From assembly GCA_021737145.1 (NCBI GenBank), contig JAIPEN010000004.1:124001-188000 (forward strand): DNA of 64,000 nt, read 5' to 3'. The notes below the pieces were generated by a model. The model had not been told where the DNA came from, did no database searches, and saw only the letters and a program-made list of their open reading frames with translations. Each line of letters starts with the position of its first letter. The stretch's first letter is position 1. Below, piece after piece: positions 1 to 41,505 of this stretch. The translations under genes and the position numbers were made by a program. This DNA comes from Desulfarculaceae bacterium (GTDB lineage: Bacteria; Desulfobacterota; Desulfarculia; Desulfarculales; Desulfarculaceae).

Positions 1-245
1 CGCGCGGCGGCAATGGCAAAATGAATAAAGGGGTCCAAACGGCGGATCTTCTTCTTGGGCACCCATTCCTCGGGGTCGAAGTCATGGACCTCGCCCGCTA
101 TCTGGGTCTTGAAGGAAGATGCGTCAAACCTGGTGATGGGACCAATGCCGCTCTTGCCGGCCTTGAGGCCCTCCCAGGTCTTTTCCAGGCCGGTGCCCAA
201 CGGCGTCACCAGCCCCAATCCAGTTACCACCACCCTGCGCTGCAC
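1..245 (-). CDS. fabF: beta-ketoacyl-ACP synthase II (5' part, cut by window edge)
   Basis: Only the first 81 codons are present; the gene runs off the left edge. The translation opens (V/M)QRRVVVTGLGLVTPLG, the standard N-terminus of FabF, which condenses malonyl-ACP with acyl-ACP in fatty acid elongation. The start is a GTG at 245-243, preceded by AAGGAG at 256-251 with a 5-base spacer; no in-frame ATG competes. It is the last visible gene of a minus-strand operon and follows acpP after about 90 bases, the usual acpP-fabF order. The catalytic Cys-His-His residues lie outside the window. Confidence 0.93.
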   Translation of the reverse strand, partial: MQRRVVVTGLGLVTPLGTGLEKTWEGLKAGKSGIGPITRFDASSFKTQIAGEVHDFDPEEWVPKKKIRRLDPFIHFAIAAA

Positions 246-336
246 GGTCACTCCTTAAACGCCCGAGGCTTCATCCCCGGACCGCGCATCCCTTGTGAGA
301 TCCCTCTGCGCCTGTCCGGGGCCATTTCCCGCGATG

Positions 337-573
337 TTATTGCTTCAGCTTCTCGATGTAGTCCCAGGCGTCCTGGACGGTCTTGATTTTTTCGGCGTCC
401 TCGTCGGCGATGGACACGTCAAAGGCCTCTTCCATGGCCATGATCATTTCCACCAGGTCCAGGGAGTCCGCCCCCAGGTCGTCGACAAAAGATGCTTCCG
501 GCACCACGTCTTCAGGGGCCACGGAAAGCTGCTCGCAGATGATCTCTTTGACTTTTGCCTTGATGTCGTCCAT
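337..573 (-). CDS. acpP: acyl carrier protein
   Basis: 78 residues, the normal ACP size. It is strongly acidic and carries the 4'-phosphopantetheine attachment motif GADSLDL, with the modified serine at residue 37. It carries growing acyl chains between the FAS II enzymes. The ATG is preceded by a GGGAG box about 12 bases upstream. It sits between fabG and fabF, as in most bacteria. Confidence 0.97.
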
Positions 574-682
574 GAAACCTTTTCTCCCAGTTTTGGTCCG
601 GGCCTTGGGGCCCGCCTTGTCCTTAATTCCTATGTCTCCGCCGCCCGGAGGCGGCGTTGCCTGTCCACAGCCCCGGGGGGCC

Positions 683-1429
683 TTACATCATCATGCCGCC
701 GTTGATGGCGATCACCTGTCCGGTGACGTAGCGGGCGGCGTCGGAGCACAGGAAGGCCACCACGTCGGCCACGTCCTCGGGCTGACCGGCCCGGCCCATG
801 GGGATCATGGCCTTCATGGCCTCCTGCAGCTTTTCGGGGATGGTGTTCACCATATCCGTTTCGATAAAGCCCGGAGCCACCGCGTTGACCCGCACCCCGC
901 GGGTGGCCAGTTCCTTGGCCGCGGTCTTGGTAAGGGCGATCACCCCCGCCTTGGAGGCGGCGTAGTTGGCCTGGCCCGGGTTGCCGATCTGGCCGGCGAT
1001 GGAGGCCAGGCTCACGATGGAGCCGAAGCGCTGCTTCATCATCAGCTTGGCCGCGGCCTGGGTGCAGTAGAACACGCCCACCAGATTGACCTGGATGACC
1101 TGGTTGAACTGCTCGGGGCTCATGCGCACCAGCAGGCCGTCCATGGTGATGCCCGCATTGTTGATCAAATTGTCGATGCGGCCCTGGGCCTCGAAGGCTT
1201 CCTTGACCCAGGCCTGCACCTGCCCGGCGTCGGTGACGTCGAACTTTTGGCCAAAGGCCTCGACACCGGCGTCCTCGAGCAGGCCGATGGTCTCATCCGC
1301 CGCGCTGTCGTCGGGGTCGTAATGATTGAAGTAGACCACGTCGCCGGCCGAGGCCAGAGCCAGGGCGATGGACCGCCCGATGCCCCGCGACCCGCCGGTT
1401 ACCAGATGCACCTTGCCTTGTTCGCTCAA
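683..1429 (-). CDS. fabG: 3-oxoacyl-ACP reductase
   Basis: 248-residue short-chain dehydrogenase. It shows the N-terminal cofactor motif TGGSRGIG (11-18), NNAG (90-93), and a catalytic Ser143-Tyr156-Lys160 triad in the YAASK context. FabG reduces 3-oxoacyl-ACP with NADPH. It lies between etfA and acpP in a run with the same direction; the neighbour acpP supports a role in synthesis rather than a generic SDR. It is slightly longer in the 35-60 region than E. coli FabG, which is common in the family. Confidence 0.93.
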
Positions 1430-1456
1430 GCTAAAACCCTCCCTTGGCGCGGCGCT

Positions 1457-2653
1457 CTAGGCCTGGCCGCGCAACTGCTTGAGGCGGGCCAGCATGGCCG
1501 GGGCCACCTCGAACAAGTCACCTACTATACCATAATGAGCCACGTCGAAAATGGGCGCGTTGGGGTCATTGTTGATCGCCACGATGGTGTCCGATCCCTG
1601 CATGCCCACCAGATGCTGCACCGCCCCGCTCACTCCCAGGGCCACATACAGCTTGGGAGCCACGGTGCGGCCGGTCTGGCCCACCTGATGGGCGTGGCCG
1701 ATCCATTCGGCATCCACCGCGCCACGGGTGGCGCCCACCACCCCGCCCAGGGCGGCGGCCATCTCGCGCACCAGGTCAAAGCCCTCGGCCTTGCCCAGGC
1801 CGCGGCCGCCGGTGACCACCACCTCGGCGCCCACCAGGTTCACCTGATCGTCGATGGCCCGCACCACCTCCATGACCTCGGTGGCCGCCTGGTCCTCCGG
1901 CTTAAGCTCCAGGGGCACCAGGCGTCCCTCGCGGCCTTCCACGCGCTCGCCGCGCTTCATAACCCGGGGACGCACCGTGGCCATCTGGGGCCGGGCGCTG
2001 GGACAGACGATGGTGGCCATGATGTTGCCGCCGAACGCCGGGCGGGTCTGCAAGAGCAGCCGCTTGTCCGGGTCGATGGCCAAGCCGGTGCAGTCGGCGG
2101 TCAGGCCGGTGGAAGCGGCCGTGGCCACCCGGGGGATGAGGCTGCGCCCCAGGGAGGTGGCTCCGGCCAAAAGTATCTCGGGCTGGTGCTCGGCGATGAG
2201 CCTGGCCAGCACCTCGCAATAAAGATCGTCGTTGAACAGCTCCAGGCGGGCATCGTCGGCCGCATAGACCACGTCCGCGCCCAGGGCGAACAGTTCGCCG
2301 CACAGGCCGTCCAGGCCCGCGCCCAGCAAAACCGCGCCCAGCTCCACTCCCAGCTCGTCGGCCAGGCGGCGTCCTTGGCCCAAAAGCTCGGCCACCACCT
2401 CGGGCATCTCGCCGCCGCGCTGCTCGGCATAGACCCAAACGCCCTTGGCGCTGGCGGTGCGCTCGTCAGCGGCGCGCTCCACCTCGGGCACGGTGATGGC
2501 CTCTTCGGGACACTCGTCCGCGCAGGCCCCGCACAGGGTGCAGGCGTCGTTCACCCGCGCCTGGTCGTCGATGAGCTCCAGGGCCTCGAAGGGGCAGGCG
2601 TCCACGCACTGGCCGCAGCCGGTGCACAACTCTTTGTCGATGATAACGCCCAT
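1457..2653 (-). CDS. etfA: electron transfer flavoprotein alpha subunit with N-terminal 2x[4Fe-4S] ferredoxin domain
   Basis: 398 residues. The start is the ATG at 2653, just before MGVIIDKELC; a longer open frame to 2689 overlaps etfB and has no coding support. Residues 1-55 hold two ferredoxin motifs (C10, C13, C16, C20 and C38, C41, C44, C48). The rest is EtfA, with the FAD-binding end ALGVSGAVQH and INNDPNAPIF. Such ferredoxin-fused EtfA proteins are known from anaerobes, for example LctC/CarE-type Etf complexes. EtfA/EtfB shuttle electrons to or from acyl-CoA dehydrogenases. It follows etfB by 4 bases and precedes fabG, so it lies inside a fatty acid synthesis operon. Confidence 0.93.
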   Translation of the reverse strand: MGVIIDKELCTGCGQCVDACPFEALELIDDQARVNDACTLCGACADECPEEAITVPEVERAADERTASAKGVWVYAEQRGGEMPEVVAELLGQGRRLADELGVELGAVLLGAGLDGLCGELFALGADVVYAADDARLELFNDDLYCEVLARLIAEHQPEILLAGATSLGRSLIPRVATAASTGLTADCTGLAIDPDKRLLLQTRPAFGGNIMATIVCPSARPQMATVRPRVMKRGERVEGREGRLVPLELKPEDQAATEVMEVVRAIDDQVNLVGAEVVVTGGRGLGKAEGFDLVREMAAALGGVVGATRGAVDAEWIGHAHQVGQTGRTVAPKLYVALGVSGAVQHLVGMQGSDTIVAINNDPNAPIFDVAHYGIVGDLFEVAPAMLARLKQLRGQA

Positions 2654-2657
2654 GGCC

Positions 2658-3455
2658 TCAGCTCCCCAGCATGATGACCTGGTTGTCAACCAGGGCGTCG
2701 ATTACTTGGGCGCCGGTCTCCTCGGGAGTGCCCTCGAGCATCCGGCGGTCGCCGGAAGCGCTGGGCGCGAAGACCTTGACCACCTGGGTGTAGGACCCGG
2801 CCAGGCCCACCTGCTCGGGCGTCAGGCCCAGCTCGGCCGCGCCCATCACCGGGGCCTGATATTTCTTGGCCCGCATCTTTCCCTTGAGCGAAGGCGGACG
2901 GGGCTCGCCCACCTCGCGCACCACGGTGATCAGACCGGGCAGGGGCAGAGCCACCACGTCGAAGCCGTCGTCCATCTGGCGCTCGAGTACCAAACGGCCC
3001 TCGGCCACCTCGCGGAAGCCCTTAACAAAGGCCACGTGGGGCAGGCCCAGGCGGCGGGCGATGCCCGGCCCCACCTGGGCGGTGTCGCCGTCCACCGCCT
3101 GCTTGCCGCAGACCACCAAGTCCACGTCTCCCAGGCTCTGGATGCCCGCGGCCAGGGCGGCGGTGGTGGCCCAGGTGTCGGCCCCGGCAAAGGCCCGGTC
3201 GCTGAGCAGCAGGCACTCGTCCACTCCGTAGCCGATGGCCTCCTTGAGCACCTCCTCGGCCTGGGGCGGACCCATGGACACGGCCACGATCTCGCCGCCG
3301 GCCTGCTCCTTGATGCGCAGGGCAGCCTCCAGGGCGAACAGGTCAAAGGGATTGATGATGCTCTCCACGCCCTCGCGCTTGAGGGTGTGGGTCTCCGGGT
3401 CCAGCTTGACGTTGGCCGTATCCGGGACCTGCTTGATGCAAACCGCTATCTTCAT
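2658..3455 (-). CDS. etfB: electron transfer flavoprotein beta subunit
   Basis: 265 residues, normal EtfB size. It opens MKIAVCIKQVPDT, typical of the family. The stretch SMGPPQAEEVLKEA with DRAFAGADTWATT resembles the N-terminal nucleotide-binding signature of electron-bifurcating EtfB proteins, where NADH binds the beta-FAD. It partners EtfA (4 bases downstream) and the acyl-CoA dehydrogenase (21 bases upstream). Assignment to EtfB is firm; assignment to the bifurcating group rests on motif likeness and needs an alignment. Confidence 0.93.
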   Translation of the reverse strand: MKIAVCIKQVPDTANVKLDPETHTLKREGVESIINPFDLFALEAALRIKEQAGGEIVAVSMGPPQAEEVLKEAIGYGVDECLLLSDRAFAGADTWATTAALAAGIQSLGDVDLVVCGKQAVDGDTAQVGPGIARRLGLPHVAFVKGFREVAEGRLVLERQMDDGFDVVALPLPGLITVVREVGEPRPPSLKGKMRAKKYQAPVMGAAELGLTPEQVGLAGSYTQVVKVFAPSASGDRRMLEGTPEETGAQVIDALVDNQVIMLGS

Positions 3456-3476
3456 TGATTCGCGCTCCAGCCGGCC

Positions 3477-4634
3477 CTACTTCTTGCGCCCGTACTCTTT
3501 GTTGAGCTCCTGGCCGATGACGTTGCGCTGGATCTGGTTGGTGCCTTCGTAGATCTGCAGAATCTTGGCGTCGCGCATCATCTTCTCCACCGGGTAGTCG
3601 CGCATGTAGCCGTGGCCGCCCAGTATCTGCACCGCGTTGGTGGTGGCCCGCATGGCCACGTCCGAGGGGAATACCTTGGCCATGGCGCTGACCTTGGAGA
3701 AGTCCTTGGCCCCGGAGTCGATGTAGCGGGCCGTGGCGTAGACCAGGGCCCGGGCCGCCTCGATCTCGGTGGCCATGTCGGCCAGCATGTGGGCCACGGC
3801 CTGGAAGGTGATGATGGGCTTGCCGAACTGCTTGCGGGTGCGGGCAAAGGCCGCGGCCTCGTCCAGGGAGCCCGCCGCCACGCCCACCGCCTGGGCCCCC
3901 ACCCCGGGGCGGGACTTGTCAAAGGTGCGCATGGCCACCACGAAGCCCAGGCCCTCGCGGCCCAGCAGGCGCGAGGCCGGGATGCGGCAGTCGTTGAAGA
4001 TCAGCTCGGCCGTGGCGCTGGCCCGGATGCCCAGCTTGGTCTCTTTTTTGCCCACGCTGAAGCCGGGGTCGCCGTCGCGCACGATAAAGGCGCTGGCCCC
4101 GCGGGGTCCCTTGGAGCGGTCGGTGATGGCCACCACGGTGTAGATGCCCGCCTCGCCGCCGTTGGTGATCCATTGCTTGGAGCCGTTGAGCACGTATTCG
4201 TCGCCGTCCTTCTTGGCCTCGGTGGCGATGGAGCCCGCGTCCGAGCCGGAGGCCGACTCGGTCAGGGCGAAGGCGCAGTACTCATCGCCGCTGCCGATGA
4301 GCGGCAGGTACTCCTGCTTTTGCTCCTCCGAGCCGTAGAGCAGGATGGGATAGGCGCCCAGGAAGGAAGCGGCGTAGCTGGTGGACACCCCGCAGCAGGC
4401 GCGGGAGAGCTCCTCCACCGCGATGCAGTTTTCCAGGCACCCGCCGCCCAGTCCGCCATACTCCTCGGGGATGATTATCTGGAACAAGTCGGCCTGGGCC
4501 AGGGCCTTCATTATCTCGCTGGGGAACTGCTCCTTTTCATCCAACTCGGCCCGAACCGGCTTGATGCGCTCTTCGGCGATCTGCCGGCAGAGGTCGCGGA
4601 TCATCTCCTGCTCTTCGGTGAAGAAATAGTCCAT
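3477..4634 (-). CDS. acyl-CoA dehydrogenase family protein
   Basis: 385 residues, the standard size for short/medium-chain acyl-CoA dehydrogenases. It has the FAD-binding segment FALTESASGSDA and the catalytic glutamate E363 in IYEGTNQIQRN. Family members take hydrogens from the alpha-beta bond of acyl-CoA and pass electrons to ETF; some clostridial Bcd types run as enoyl-CoA reductases with bifurcating ETF. It sits between plsX and etfB, where fabH-fabD are found in many bacteria. Whether it acts on CoA or ACP thioesters, and in which direction, cannot be read from the sequence. Confidence 0.93.
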   Translation of the reverse strand: MDYFFTEEQEMIRDLCRQIAEERIKPVRAELDEKEQFPSEIMKALAQADLFQIIIPEEYGGLGGGCLENCIAVEELSRACCGVSTSYAASFLGAYPILLYGSEEQKQEYLPLIGSGDEYCAFALTESASGSDAGSIATEAKKDGDEYVLNGSKQWITNGGEAGIYTVVAITDRSKGPRGASAFIVRDGDPGFSVGKKETKLGIRASATAELIFNDCRIPASRLLGREGLGFVVAMRTFDKSRPGVGAQAVGVAAGSLDEAAAFARTRKQFGKPIITFQAVAHMLADMATEIEAARALVYATARYIDSGAKDFSKVSAMAKVFPSDVAMRATTNAVQILGGHGYMRDYPVEKMMRDAKILQIYEGTNQIQRNVIGQELNKEYGRKK

Positions 4635-4683
4635 CGAATCGTTTCTCCCCAGTGATGTTGGCCGCGCCAGGAGGCGGCCCGGC

Positions 4684-5712
4684 TCAGTCGAGGGCCGCTT
4701 CGCCCAGCAGGCGGCCCCGGTATTGCTCCAGCCCCTCGGCCAGATGGCGGGTCACCTCGGCGCGCACCGTGTCGGCGGTCACCCTGACCGCGGTGGCGAT
4801 GGCCTTGGGCGAGGAGGCGCCGTGGGCGATGAGCCCCACTCCGTTGATGCCCAACAGCGGAGCCCCCCCGTAGTTGGAATAGTCCAGACGGCTGGCCACG
4901 TCGCGGAACTGCTCTCTTAGCAGCAGCCCGCCCAGGCGGCCCTTGATGCTGTGGGACATGTATTCCCGGAAAAAGTACTCAAAGGTGTCGGCAAAGCCTT
5001 CCACCAGCTTGATGCAGACGTTGCCCACGAAGCCGTCGCAAACGATGACCTGGGTGTCGCCCACGAACATGTCGCGGCCTTCCACGTTGCCGATGAAGTT
5101 CAGGCCGCTGCTGTTTAGATGGTCGGCCGCCTGTTTCACCGCGGTGTTGCCCTTGCCCGGCTCCTCGCCGATGGACAACAGCCCCACCTTGGGGTGGGTC
5201 AGGCCCATGACCTTTTCGGCGTACACGCTGCCCATGTAGCCGAACTGCATGAGCATCAGGGGGGTGCAGTCAACGTTGGCCCCCACGTCGATGAGCAGGG
5301 TGGGCCCTTTGAGGGCGGGGAACACCGAGGCCAGGGCCGGGCGGTCCACCTCGGCCAGGCGGCCCATGACCACCACTCCCAAGGCCATGGTGGCCCCGGA
5401 GTTGCCCGCGCTGATCACCGCGTCGGCCTCGCCGGATTTGTGCAGGTTGTAGCAGACCCGAATGCTGGAGTCGGGCAGGCGCCTGAGGGCGTGCCCCGGC
5501 GAGGCGTCCATGGCCACCACTTGGGTGGCCGGGTGCAGACGCAGCCGGTCGCTGGGCGCTCCCTCGCGCTCCAACAGGGGTTCGAGCACCTGGGGTTGAC
5601 CCACCAGGATCAGCTCCACGTCGGACGGGGTCTCGCCCAGGGCGCGCAGGGCACCCTTGACCACCGCCTCGGGAGCCTTGTCTCCTCCCATGCCATCCAG
5701 GGCGATGCGCAT
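4684..5712 (-). CDS. plsX: phosphate acyltransferase PlsX
   Basis: 342 residues beginning MRIALDGMGGDKAPEA, the PlsX signature. PlsX converts acyl-ACP and phosphate to acyl-phosphate, the acyl donor for PlsY in phosphatidic acid synthesis; plsY lies at 59.6 kb in this window. It starts 12 bases after the rpmF stop. The DUF177-rpmF-plsX order is conserved in many bacteria and ties lipid synthesis to ribosome production. Confidence 0.96.
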   Translation of the reverse strand: MRIALDGMGGDKAPEAVVKGALRALGETPSDVELILVGQPQVLEPLLEREGAPSDRLRLHPATQVVAMDASPGHALRRLPDSSIRVCYNLHKSGEADAVISAGNSGATMALGVVVMGRLAEVDRPALASVFPALKGPTLLIDVGANVDCTPLMLMQFGYMGSVYAEKVMGLTHPKVGLLSIGEEPGKGNTAVKQAADHLNSSGLNFIGNVEGRDMFVGDTQVIVCDGFVGNVCIKLVEGFADTFEYFFREYMSHSIKGRLGGLLLREQFRDVASRLDYSNYGGAPLLGINGVGLIAHGASSPKAIATAVRVTADTVRAEVTRHLAEGLEQYRGRLLGEAALD

Positions 5713-5724
5713 AAGCGCTAGTAC

Positions 5725-5904
5725 CTACTCTTCGGTTTGCACCGCTTGGCGGCCCTTGTAGGTGCCGCAGGACTGGCAAACCCGGTGAGGCATCTTGGGC
5801 TCGCCGCACTGGGGGCACAACACCGGGTTGGGCAGGGTGATGGCGTCGTGGGAGCGCCGCTTCTTGGAGCGGGTGGTGGAATGACGTCTTTTGGGAACAG
5901 CCAT
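5725..5904 (-). CDS. rpmF: 50S ribosomal protein bL32
   Basis: A 59-residue protein beginning MAVPKRRHSTTRSKKRRSH, as in bL32. It has a zinc-ribbon pair CPQC and CQSC (C30, C33, C43, C46), so it is a zinc-binding C+ form. The start is ATG at 5904 and the stop TAG at 5725-5727. A longer open frame over the same bases (to 5927) is in another frame and is not coding. Its place between DUF177 and plsX is the classic arrangement. Confidence 0.97.
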   Translation of the reverse strand: MAVPKRRHSTTRSKKRRSHDAITLPNPVLCPQCGEPKMPHRVCQSCGTYKGRQAVQTEE

Positions 5905-5955
5905 GGCTCTATATGTCTCCGGATCAATCGCGGACGTGCCGCGTGTTTTAAGAAC

Positions 5956-6474
5956 TCATTCTTTTTTTAGCTGGGCCAGCTTGGCCCAGCGGGGATCGAC
6001 GTTATCCGAGGCGCAACAGGCCCGGCCCTCCTGGAGCGGCTTGCCGCAGACGGGGCACAGGCCGGGGCAGTCCGTCCGGCACAGAGGCGCCATGGGCAGG
6101 GCCAGGCCCAGCTCATCGCGCAATGCCTGGGCCAGGTCGATGACTCCGTCCCGGTAAAAGGACAAATCCATTTCCTCGCCCGCCAGGTGCTGCTCGTCCG
6201 GGGCCTCGCCGGGCAAAGGCCGGAAGGACCAGTCCACCTCGCCCTCCAGGCTGAAGGGCATGGGGCCCAGGCAACGGCTGCAACTCAGCACCAGGCCGGC
6301 CGCATAGCTTCCCTGGGCGGTGACCAACTCGTCCAGTCGCTCCAGGCGAAGCTCCGCCCGGGGCGGCTCGGTGATGGCCTCCACCTGCGGTCCCAGGTCC
6401 CCGGGGGCGGCGGCTCCGTCGGTGAAGCTCACGGTCAGCCCTTCCGGCTGAATGTCGTTCACCTCCACCTTCAT
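5956..6474 (-). CDS. YceD/DUF177 family protein
   Basis: 172 residues from the ATG at 6474 (MKVEVNDIQPEG); the frame is open further upstream to 6531 but without coding character. It has the family's central CSRC motif and a C-terminal cysteine cluster (CRTDCPGLCPVCG) that suggests metal binding. DUF177/YceD proteins almost always precede rpmF and have been linked to 23S rRNA accumulation or processing. First gene of the lipid operon; a promoter lies at 6605-6633. Confidence 0.88.
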   Translation of the reverse strand: MKVEVNDIQPEGLTVSFTDGAAAPGDLGPQVEAITEPPRAELRLERLDELVTAQGSYAAGLVLSCSRCLGPMPFSLEGEVDWSFRPLPGEAPDEQHLAGEEMDLSFYRDGVIDLAQALRDELGLALPMAPLCRTDCPGLCPVCGKPLQEGRACCASDNVDPRWAKLAQLKKE

Positions 6475-40518: not shown

Positions 40519-41505
40519 ATGGTCCCCATCCATCTTGCGGGTACCGGTTATTATCTGCCCGAAAAGGTACTGACCAACTACGACCTCGAGCAGACCCTGG
40601 ACACCACCCACGACTGGATCGTCAAGCGAACCGGCGTGAGCGAGCGCCGGGTGGCCGCGCCCGACCAGGCGGCCAGCGATCTGGCTCTGCCCGCCGCCCG
40701 CCAGGCCATGGAAATGGCCGGGGTGGGCGATGGCGACCTGGACTTCATCATCGTGGCCACCATCACCCCGGACACCCACTGCCCCTCGGCGGCCAACTGG
40801 CTGCAGGCCAAGATGGACGCGCCCCAGGCGGTAAGCTTTGACGTGACCGCCGCGTGCAGCGGTTTCGTCTTTGGCCTGGACGTGGCCACCCGCTACATCC
40901 AGACCGGCATGGCCAAGACCGTGCTGGTGGCGGCCAGCGAGGTGATGAGCCGGGTGCAGGACTGGACCGACCGCTCCAACTGCATCCTGTGGGGCGACGG
41001 GGCCGGCGCGGCGGTGCTGACCGCCGGCGAGGGCAACCCTTGCCTGGTGGACACCTATCTGGGAACCGACGGGGCCAACGGACAGAACCTCTTGATGCCC
41101 GGCGGCGGCTCCAAGACCACCCCCATCACCCACGACTCGGTGGACGCCAAGCTGCACAGCCTGAAGATGATCGAGGCCTCGGCCTCGGTGCGGGTGGCGG
41201 TGAAGTACTTCGCCGACTCGGTGACCCTGATGCTGGAGCGCCACGGCCTGACCCTGGACGACGTGGACCACTTCATCCCTCACCAGGCCAACCTGCGCAT
41301 GCTCCAGGCCGTGGCCAAGCGGCTGGGGGTGGACTTCGAGCGTTTCGTCATCACCGTGGAGCGCTACGGCAACATCTCCTCGGCCTCCAGCGCCATCGCC
41401 CTGGCCGAGGCCATGGCCACCGGCCGCATCAAGCCCGGCGACAAGGCGGTAATCACCGTGTTCGGCGGCGGGCTCACCTGGGGCAGCGCCCTGATCCAGT
41501 TCTAG
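40519..41505 (+). CDS. fabH: beta-ketoacyl-ACP synthase III
   Basis: 328 residues. The thiolase fold has active C113 in TAACSGF, H255 in PHQAN and N285 in GNISSAS, the FabH Cys-His-Asn triad. It condenses acetyl-CoA with malonyl-ACP to start fatty acid synthesis. It lies outside the fab operon, between ppdK and an unrelated gene on the other strand. A related KAS III with another acyl starter is possible. Confidence 0.92.
   Translation: MVPIHLAGTGYYLPEKVLTNYDLEQTLDTTHDWIVKRTGVSERRVAAPDQAASDLALPAARQAMEMAGVGDGDLDFIIVATITPDTHCPSAANWLQAKMDAPQAVSFDVTAACSGFVFGLDVATRYIQTGMAKTVLVAASEVMSRVQDWTDRSNCILWGDGAGAAVLTAGEGNPCLVDTYLGTDGANGQNLLMPGGGSKTTPITHDSVDAKLHSLKMIEASASVRVAVKYFADSVTLMLERHGLTLDDVDHFIPHQANLRMLQAVAKRLGVDFERFVITVERYGNISSASSAIALAEAMATGRIKPGDKAVITVFGGGLTWGSALIQF

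Follow-up and report, generated by a model that had tools for sequence, protein, structure and literature searches.

An acyl-CoA dehydrogenase encoded with an electron-transfer flavoprotein in a fatty acid synthesis operon is a candidate enoyl-acyl carrier protein reductase in Desulfobacterota

We analyzed a 64,000-nucleotide stretch of a Desulfarculaceae genome (contig JAIPEN010000004.1, positions 124,001 to 188,000; hereafter the window), at the start of which the genes for an acyl-CoA dehydrogenase family protein (Acd), a kind of enzyme that normally serves fatty acid breakdown, and for both subunits of an electron-transfer flavoprotein (ETF) lie in an operon for type II fatty acid synthesis, where Acd is a candidate enoyl-acyl carrier protein (ACP) reductase. 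All nine genes of this operon, yceD-rpmF-plsX-acd-etfB-etfA-fabG-acpP-fabF, are on the minus strand in the first 6.5 kb of the window, with intergenic gaps of 4 to about 110 bases (Table 1). Pfam searches back the assignments, save those of rpmF and fabF, which were both read from the sequence and matched in relatives. The gene order on one strand and the short gaps had been described in an initial annotation of this DNA and were borne out, the order both by the coordinates and by its conservation in 24 close genomes. Because these 24 genomes, all of which have acd, keep the order, it is not a product of chance. The initial annotation had also named one clear promoter, which is unproven: the TTGACA and TATAGT elements upstream of yceD are, by reading, 15 bases apart, outside the 16–18 bases of the promoter scanner, which reports another, 9-of-12 site at 6633-6605. 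It did not mention the N-terminal domain of EtfA, which carries two CxxCxxCxxxC motifs. Beyond the window, the downstream genes are, as read from their sequences, presumably comEB-nrdR-ribD-ribE-ribBA-ribH.

Table 1. Positions of the operon genes and of fabH within the window, with the basis of each assignment.
Feature	Position	Strand	Basis
yceD (DUF177)	5956..6474	-	Pfam PF02620, 100 bits
rpmF (ribosomal protein L32), 59 aa	5725..5904	-	sequence reading; relatives beside plsX agree
plsX	4684..5712	-	TIGR00182, 350 bits, cut-off 243
acd, acyl-CoA dehydrogenase family member and candidate enoyl-ACP reductase	3477..4634	-	PF00441/02770/02771
etfB, electron-transfer flavoprotein beta	2658..3455	-	PF01012
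etfA with N-terminal two-cluster ferredoxin domain	1457..2653	-	PF00037, PF01012, PF00766
fabG	683..1429	-	TIGR01830, 315 bits, above cut-off 298
acpP	337..573	-	TIGR00517, 105 bits, above cut-off 70
fabF, 5' part, runs off window start	1..251	-	sequence reading; same-place relatives agree; complete in L056 5999-7252
fabH, outside the operon	40519..41505	+	TIGR00747 over cut-off at G000:C28:164531-165502

An Acd ortholog was present in 24 of 40 close genomes, the source genome included, with 66–96% identity outside the source genome. In all 24 it lies in this operon, to the extent covered by the contigs, several of which are cut; at the locus of one 2.4-Mb genome (G012), plsX and etfBA are missing and acd is kept, overlapping fabG by 4 bases. 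The other 16 close genomes, which lack the ortholog, all come from one family of the class (f4). These 16 gave no FabI-strength match and neither FabH nor FabK over cut-off, and plsX was absent from both of the genomes tested.

The initial annotation had proposed following the gene order across relatives, and we found it kept not only in the 24 close genomes but in many families and beyond the phylum. In a sample of 297 genomes of the phylum, 144 carry an Acd ortholog (142 at ≥495 bits, two at 450), and the next listed matches, at ≤447 bits, all come from genomes already counted as bearers. We opened 55 of these loci, which cover all 42 Acd-bearing families and include eight of the 24 close genomes, and 54 of them lie in a fab operon, the sole exception being that of G066. 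Fifteen Acd bearers had a single Acd-family candidate at first look; ten of these loci were opened, and nine are in a fab operon (G055, G060, G111 via its named copy L132, G189, G190, G236, G278, G298 and G318). The tenth, that of G136, a relative of G066, was opened in addition to the 55; it is outside a fab operon, and its acd-etfBA adjoins an oppositely oriented ketoacyl synthase gene. At this last locus (L254, 2816-8782; genome of 1.63 Mb), acd-etfB-etfA is divergent from the ketoacyl synthase gene and one for an AMP-binding acyl ligase. A scan of named genomes, in which the best 80 loci by match were considered, returned Desulfobacterota (among them Desulfacinum, Desulfobacca, Desulfopila, Desulfobulbaceae and Desulfofervidaceae) as well as Nitrospirota, Omnitrophota and metagenome-assembled genomes (MAGs) labelled Bacillota and Lentisphaerae. 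Sixty of these 80 loci have an adjacent fab gene: 51 have at least two of yceD, rpmF, plsX, fabH, fabG, acpP and fabF within 6 kb and in the same orientation, two have one, and seven further loci have fabD behind etfA.

That acd-etfBA replace fabH-fabD, as the initial annotation had put it, holds locally, the source genome encoding fabH and fabD elsewhere and not within the acd operon, but not across relatives, some of which keep both genes around acd-etfBA in the order plsX-fabH-acd-etfB-etfA-fabD-fabG-acpP-fabF. The fullest operons, for example L128 and L151, read yceD-rpmF-plsX-fabH-acd-etfB-etfA-fabD-fabG-acpP-fabF, and the operons of other relatives, without etfBA, contain acd-fabD-fabG. 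Since 37 of 151 loci (six locus pairs share an identical protein) have a same-strand fabD no more than 6 kb away, mostly directly behind acd or etfA, we dropped the notion that Acd replaces fabD. Because some relatives hold fabH and fabD in the same operon, acd-etfBA looks like an addition to it, with fabH and fabD relocated or lost from it in the source genome. The fabH gene of the window is located behind a gene that was read, without a family search, as pyruvate phosphate dikinase, away from the fab operon.

The fold families of Acd (PF00441/02770/02771) are not those of a short-chain dehydrogenase/reductase (SDR), so that it falls outside the FabI/FabL family. Its best NCBIfam model is the acryloyl-CoA reductase NF042972, at 449 bits against a cut-off of 640, and none of the three models of this type reaches its equivalog cut-off (449/640, 361/600 and 225/475 bits). 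The nearest solved chains are 3pfd (406 bits), 5ol2 (390) and 4l1f (367), with CarC at 309. The YEGT motif with the catalytic Glu is conserved in 143 of 145 distinct orthologs; of the two misses, one row is cut by a contig end and the other has YEGA, with the catalytic Glu retained. In a tree of the 145 orthologs and six paralogs, which was made by a quick method with support from the Shimodaira-Hasegawa-like approximate likelihood ratio test (SH-aLRT) only, one branch sets the paralogs apart and the operon-borne Acds group together, with 7 label changes versus 31 in shuffles, at least five of the changes being forced by well-supported branches. Residues R178 and K351 are invariant in 137 ortholog rows; in the nine outgroup rows (the six paralogs and three solved chains), position 178 is occupied by His, Lys or Asn and position 351 by Arg. 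All the ortholog rows likewise have W155, yet one outgroup row shares it, and H282, M344, L359 and N371 are found in at least 95% of the ortholog rows. Clade-marking residues such as R178 count in favor of the proposed reductase role of Acd, and they may serve in ACP binding. A fold assigned to ACP-bound substrates is shared with the acyl-ACP dehydrogenase MbtN/FadE14 (NF037942), which is only remotely similar (71 bits, cut-off 700) and works in a siderophore pathway in the oxidizing direction. One rival explanation is that Acd acts on free acyl-CoA or enoyl-CoA, in degradation or to produce short starter CoA esters on which FabH would draw, and that regulation alone accounts for its place in the operon. 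Its sequence is indeed nearest to CoA-type dehydrogenases, and it adjoins fabH in some operons; the position in the operon is nevertheless stable even where fabH is absent from the operon, and 15 bearers have just one Acd-family candidate at first look, and we consider this explanation most improbable.

The partner flavoprotein has its own close affinities. EtfB is nearest, among solved chains, to CarD of the caffeyl-CoA reductase 6fah (252 bits, with canonical ETFs at about 90) and EtfA to CarE of the same complex (425 bits), and for both subunits 6fah, 7qh2, 4kpu, 7koe and 5ol2, with ETFs of the bifurcating kind, outrank canonical ETFs by far. In 96 distinct EtfA proteins encoded next to Acd, both CxxCxxCxxxC motifs are present in 81, one motif in 1 and none in 14. 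By its nearest relatives, EtfAB appears to be of the electron-bifurcating type and would be predicted to bifurcate. The set as a whole resembles caffeyl-CoA reductase CarCDE, a bifurcating enzyme of Acetobacterium woodii, in combining an Acd with EtfB and EtfA, in the two-cluster ferredoxin domain on EtfA and in having EtfA and EtfB nearest to CarE and CarD. It differs from CarCDE in being part of a fatty acid synthesis operon, in an Acd that is nearer to 3pfd, 5ol2 and 4l1f than to CarC, and in its proposed substrate, enoyl-ACP. With the Bcd-Etf complexes (5ol2, 4l1f/4kpu), it shares the dehydrogenase fold, the YEGT catalytic motif and the bifurcating-type ETF; unlike in these complexes, Acd forms a separate clade, with marker residues that are absent or rare in the nine outgroup rows, and its genes have a biosynthetic rather than a fermentative context. 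With NADH as the donor, Bcd-EtfAB is reported to reduce both crotonyl-CoA and ferredoxin (PMC5691135).

The initial annotation had suggested a genome survey for fabI, fabK, fabL and fabV. Among the 40 close genomes, where every FabI candidate down to an E value of 0.001 was scored, there was no FabI- or FabL-strength match, the best match to the FabI query reaching 75.5 bits (G009) and that of the source genome, a glucose-dehydrogenase-like SDR, 69 bits; nor was there any FabK over the TIGR03151 cut-off, the source genome included, and FabV was not found. In the phylum sample, where only the best few candidates per genome were scored for FabI, Acd and FabK and rare misses are possible, a clear FabI was detected with the E. 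coli FabI query in 53 of 297 genomes (40–54% identity, 196–285 bits). FabI and Acd occur together in three genomes versus 25.7 expected (Fisher p 3e-13) and, at the level of families, in one of 95 versus 8.8 expected (p 3e-5), p-values that are too small owing to kinship among the genomes. FabK over cut-off was found in four of the 297 genomes, and FabV marginally over cut-off in G152 and G313, none of them with Acd; the search for FabV by PF12242 gave no match in control genomes, and a clear match in G170 shows that it can work. In a follow-up of 28 distinct genomes (30 handles, two identical pairs), in which every candidate was scored, 24 had nothing above 58 bits to FabI, the others being G330, G346, G055 and G347. 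The fabG of the acd operon is the sole FabI-query match in three genomes: G298, which is 100% complete in one contig, G190 and G328, a Desulfobacca MAG. Altogether, 96 of the 144 Acd genomes gave no FabI, no FabL-level match, no FabV and no FabK-like protein with an E value of 1e-70 or below (G055 being counted as FabL), with the limit that FabL-level matches weaker than 1e-30 would escape the phylum survey outside the fully scored genomes.

The near-exclusion of FabI also bears on the idea that Acd is a dehydrogenase on acyl-ACP, which would introduce a double bond to give unsaturated fatty acids without O2, much as FabX does with another fold, while the ETF removes the electrons. Acyl-CoA dehydrogenase folds do normally oxidize, and FabX is reported to have a dehydrogenase role in fatty acid synthesis (PMC8626469). 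A desaturase would, however, leave the near-exclusion of FabI unexplained, and the ferredoxin-bearing, bifurcating-type ETF points to reduction; we hold this option to be very unlikely.

Gene content, order and conservation, the scarcity of FabI beside Acd and the family identity of the ETF are direct observations. An ETF-linked enoyl-ACP reductase is the best reading of the locus, given where acd lies, how widely this position is kept and how rarely FabI occurs with it. The initial annotation had raised an ETF-linked enoyl reductase as one idea, and this is supported in part, by the lack, near home, of FabI- or FabL-strength matches, of FabK over cut-off and of FabV, and by the conserved order; the desaturating or proofreading functions that it gave as alternatives are less likely than enoyl reduction. 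In our assessment, there is a good three-to-one case that Acd reduces enoyl thioesters in fatty acid synthesis, and it is probably, with scarcely less assurance, the enoyl-ACP reductase of the type II pathway, fed by EtfAB and with probable coupling to ferredoxin. Whether this reduction would proceed by bifurcation we judge to be an even call. In the proposed cycle, FabF would condense, FabG would reduce the keto group and a dehydratase would remove water, whereupon Acd, with its flavin adenine dinucleotide (FAD), would reduce trans-2-enoyl-ACP to acyl-ACP with electrons reaching it from EtfB-EtfA. The reductive direction, ACP as the carrier and bifurcation are inferred. As the ETF is of the bifurcating type with a ferredoxin domain, a ferredoxin-coupled reaction is likely, of the form 2 NADH + enoyl-ACP + oxidized ferredoxin -> 2 NAD+ + acyl-ACP + reduced ferredoxin, in which the exergonic enoyl reduction would pay for low-potential electrons and not be lost. 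Acd would thus carry out the reaction of FabI, FabK, FabL and FabV, and unlike them it is an FAD-type acyl-CoA dehydrogenase with an ETF partner; their folds (SDR, TIM barrel) are unrelated to that of acyl-CoA dehydrogenases.

Several observations weigh against a reductase role for Acd, in addition to the kinship that affects the p-values. In 20 of the best 80 named loci (15 of them from Nitrospirota), Acd is away from the fab genes sought, and 30 of 121 fab loci, some at contig ends, have no etf gene within 2.5 kb; such Acd bearers would have to obtain an ETF from elsewhere. FabI accompanies Acd in G233, G255 and G314, all from family f58, and, by the full-scoring follow-up, in G330. The clear FabV match (116 bits) of G170 is in an Acd bearer, and FabL over the curated cut-off was confirmed in two more, G055 and G346 (95–106 bits), the latter with a second, unclassified FabI-query match of 82 bits. 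FabL-strength matches occur in ten genomes of the phylum survey, seven of them further Acd bearers, and all were treated as FabL; G347, another Acd bearer, has a divergent FabI-like SDR below cut-off. FabK-like proteins at E 1e-70 or better, below cut-off, are encoded by 37 of the 144 Acd bearers. Finally, 98 of the 297 phylum genomes have neither Acd nor a recognized reductase at the thresholds used, medium-chain dehydrogenase/reductase (MDR)-type reductases not having been searched for. Because of these 98 genomes, the phylum must hold other, unnamed reductases, and an absence by itself does not prove the case for Acd.

These same genomes, the 37 bearers of FabK-like proteins akin to nitronate monooxygenase (NMO), two weaker such proteins in the source genome (G000) and the MDR-type reductases outside our searches all favor a further explanation, namely that another, unrecognized enoyl-ACP reductase works in Acd bearers and that Acd-ETF has a side job, for instance in the synthesis or editing of special acyl chains. 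That side job would, however, have to stay in the fab operon over 41 of 42 families and yet nearly exclude FabI. Moreover, the one FabK-like protein of G000 that was compared scores higher with PA1024/nitronate monooxygenase (255 bits) than with FabK (188 bits), the near-complete sister genomes have no such protein (G010) or one of only 27 bits (G013), and G298, G190 and G328 offer nothing to the FabI query besides fabG. We therefore regard an unrecognized reductase with a side job for Acd-ETF as unlikely.

A FabK-like NMO is unlikely to be the enoyl reductase of the source genome, given the closer match to PA1024 and the situation in the two sisters. FabI-query matches of about 95–121 bits in other families had been taken for generic SDRs, an assignment that was dropped since the two extracted proved to be FabL over cut-off. 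Loci L221, L222 and L223 hold FabL over cut-off in two Desulfobacterota genomes and the divergent FabI-like SDR in a Desulfocapsa MAG.

Enoyl reduction closes every round of fatty acid synthesis and is a main drug target, and it normally wastes a redox drop of about 0.3 V. An acyl-CoA dehydrogenase with a bifurcating, ferredoxin-bearing ETF could constitute a new class of enoyl-ACP reductase, the main one for roughly half of the phylum as sampled and for some Nitrospirota, and an energy-conserving one yielding reduced ferredoxin in every elongation round; for this full proposal, we put the chances slightly below even. Were the reductase role true, the fatty acid pathway would be mis-annotated in a large set of anaerobes, inhibitors aimed at FabI, triclosan among them, should have no effect on the enoyl-reduction step, and a step that normally wastes its redox drop could pay for ferredoxin reduction. 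Acd-EtfBA would also be a concrete candidate for many genomes without a recognized enoyl-ACP reductase. Among the matches listed from the open-licence literature, none reported an acyl-CoA dehydrogenase as the enoyl-ACP reductase in such an operon. In Desulfotalea psychrophila, FabI lies outside the fab clusters that one source displays (PMC2649909).

We also searched 30 genomes, 29 with neither Acd nor a recognized reductase and one, G068, with a FabL-strength match, and plsX was missing in 19. Of the 11 plsX loci that were retrieved from genomes of this kind, none has an Acd of the operon type. The gene fabD lies between plsX (or fabH) and fabG in L202, L203, L204, L206, L208 and L209, the last of which ends inside fabG; L205, L210 and L211 have no fabD at the plsX locus, and L212 is cut inside plsX. 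L207 also has fabD between plsX and fabG, plus a different, larger Acd with EtfBA upstream. At this locus (G084, 2-3621), a 580 aa acyl-CoA dehydrogenase with PF12186 and EtfBA are encoded directly upstream of rpmF-plsX-fabD-fabG-acpP-fabF, in a genome with no FabI match; this is possibly, in a single genome, an independent recruitment of the same idea.

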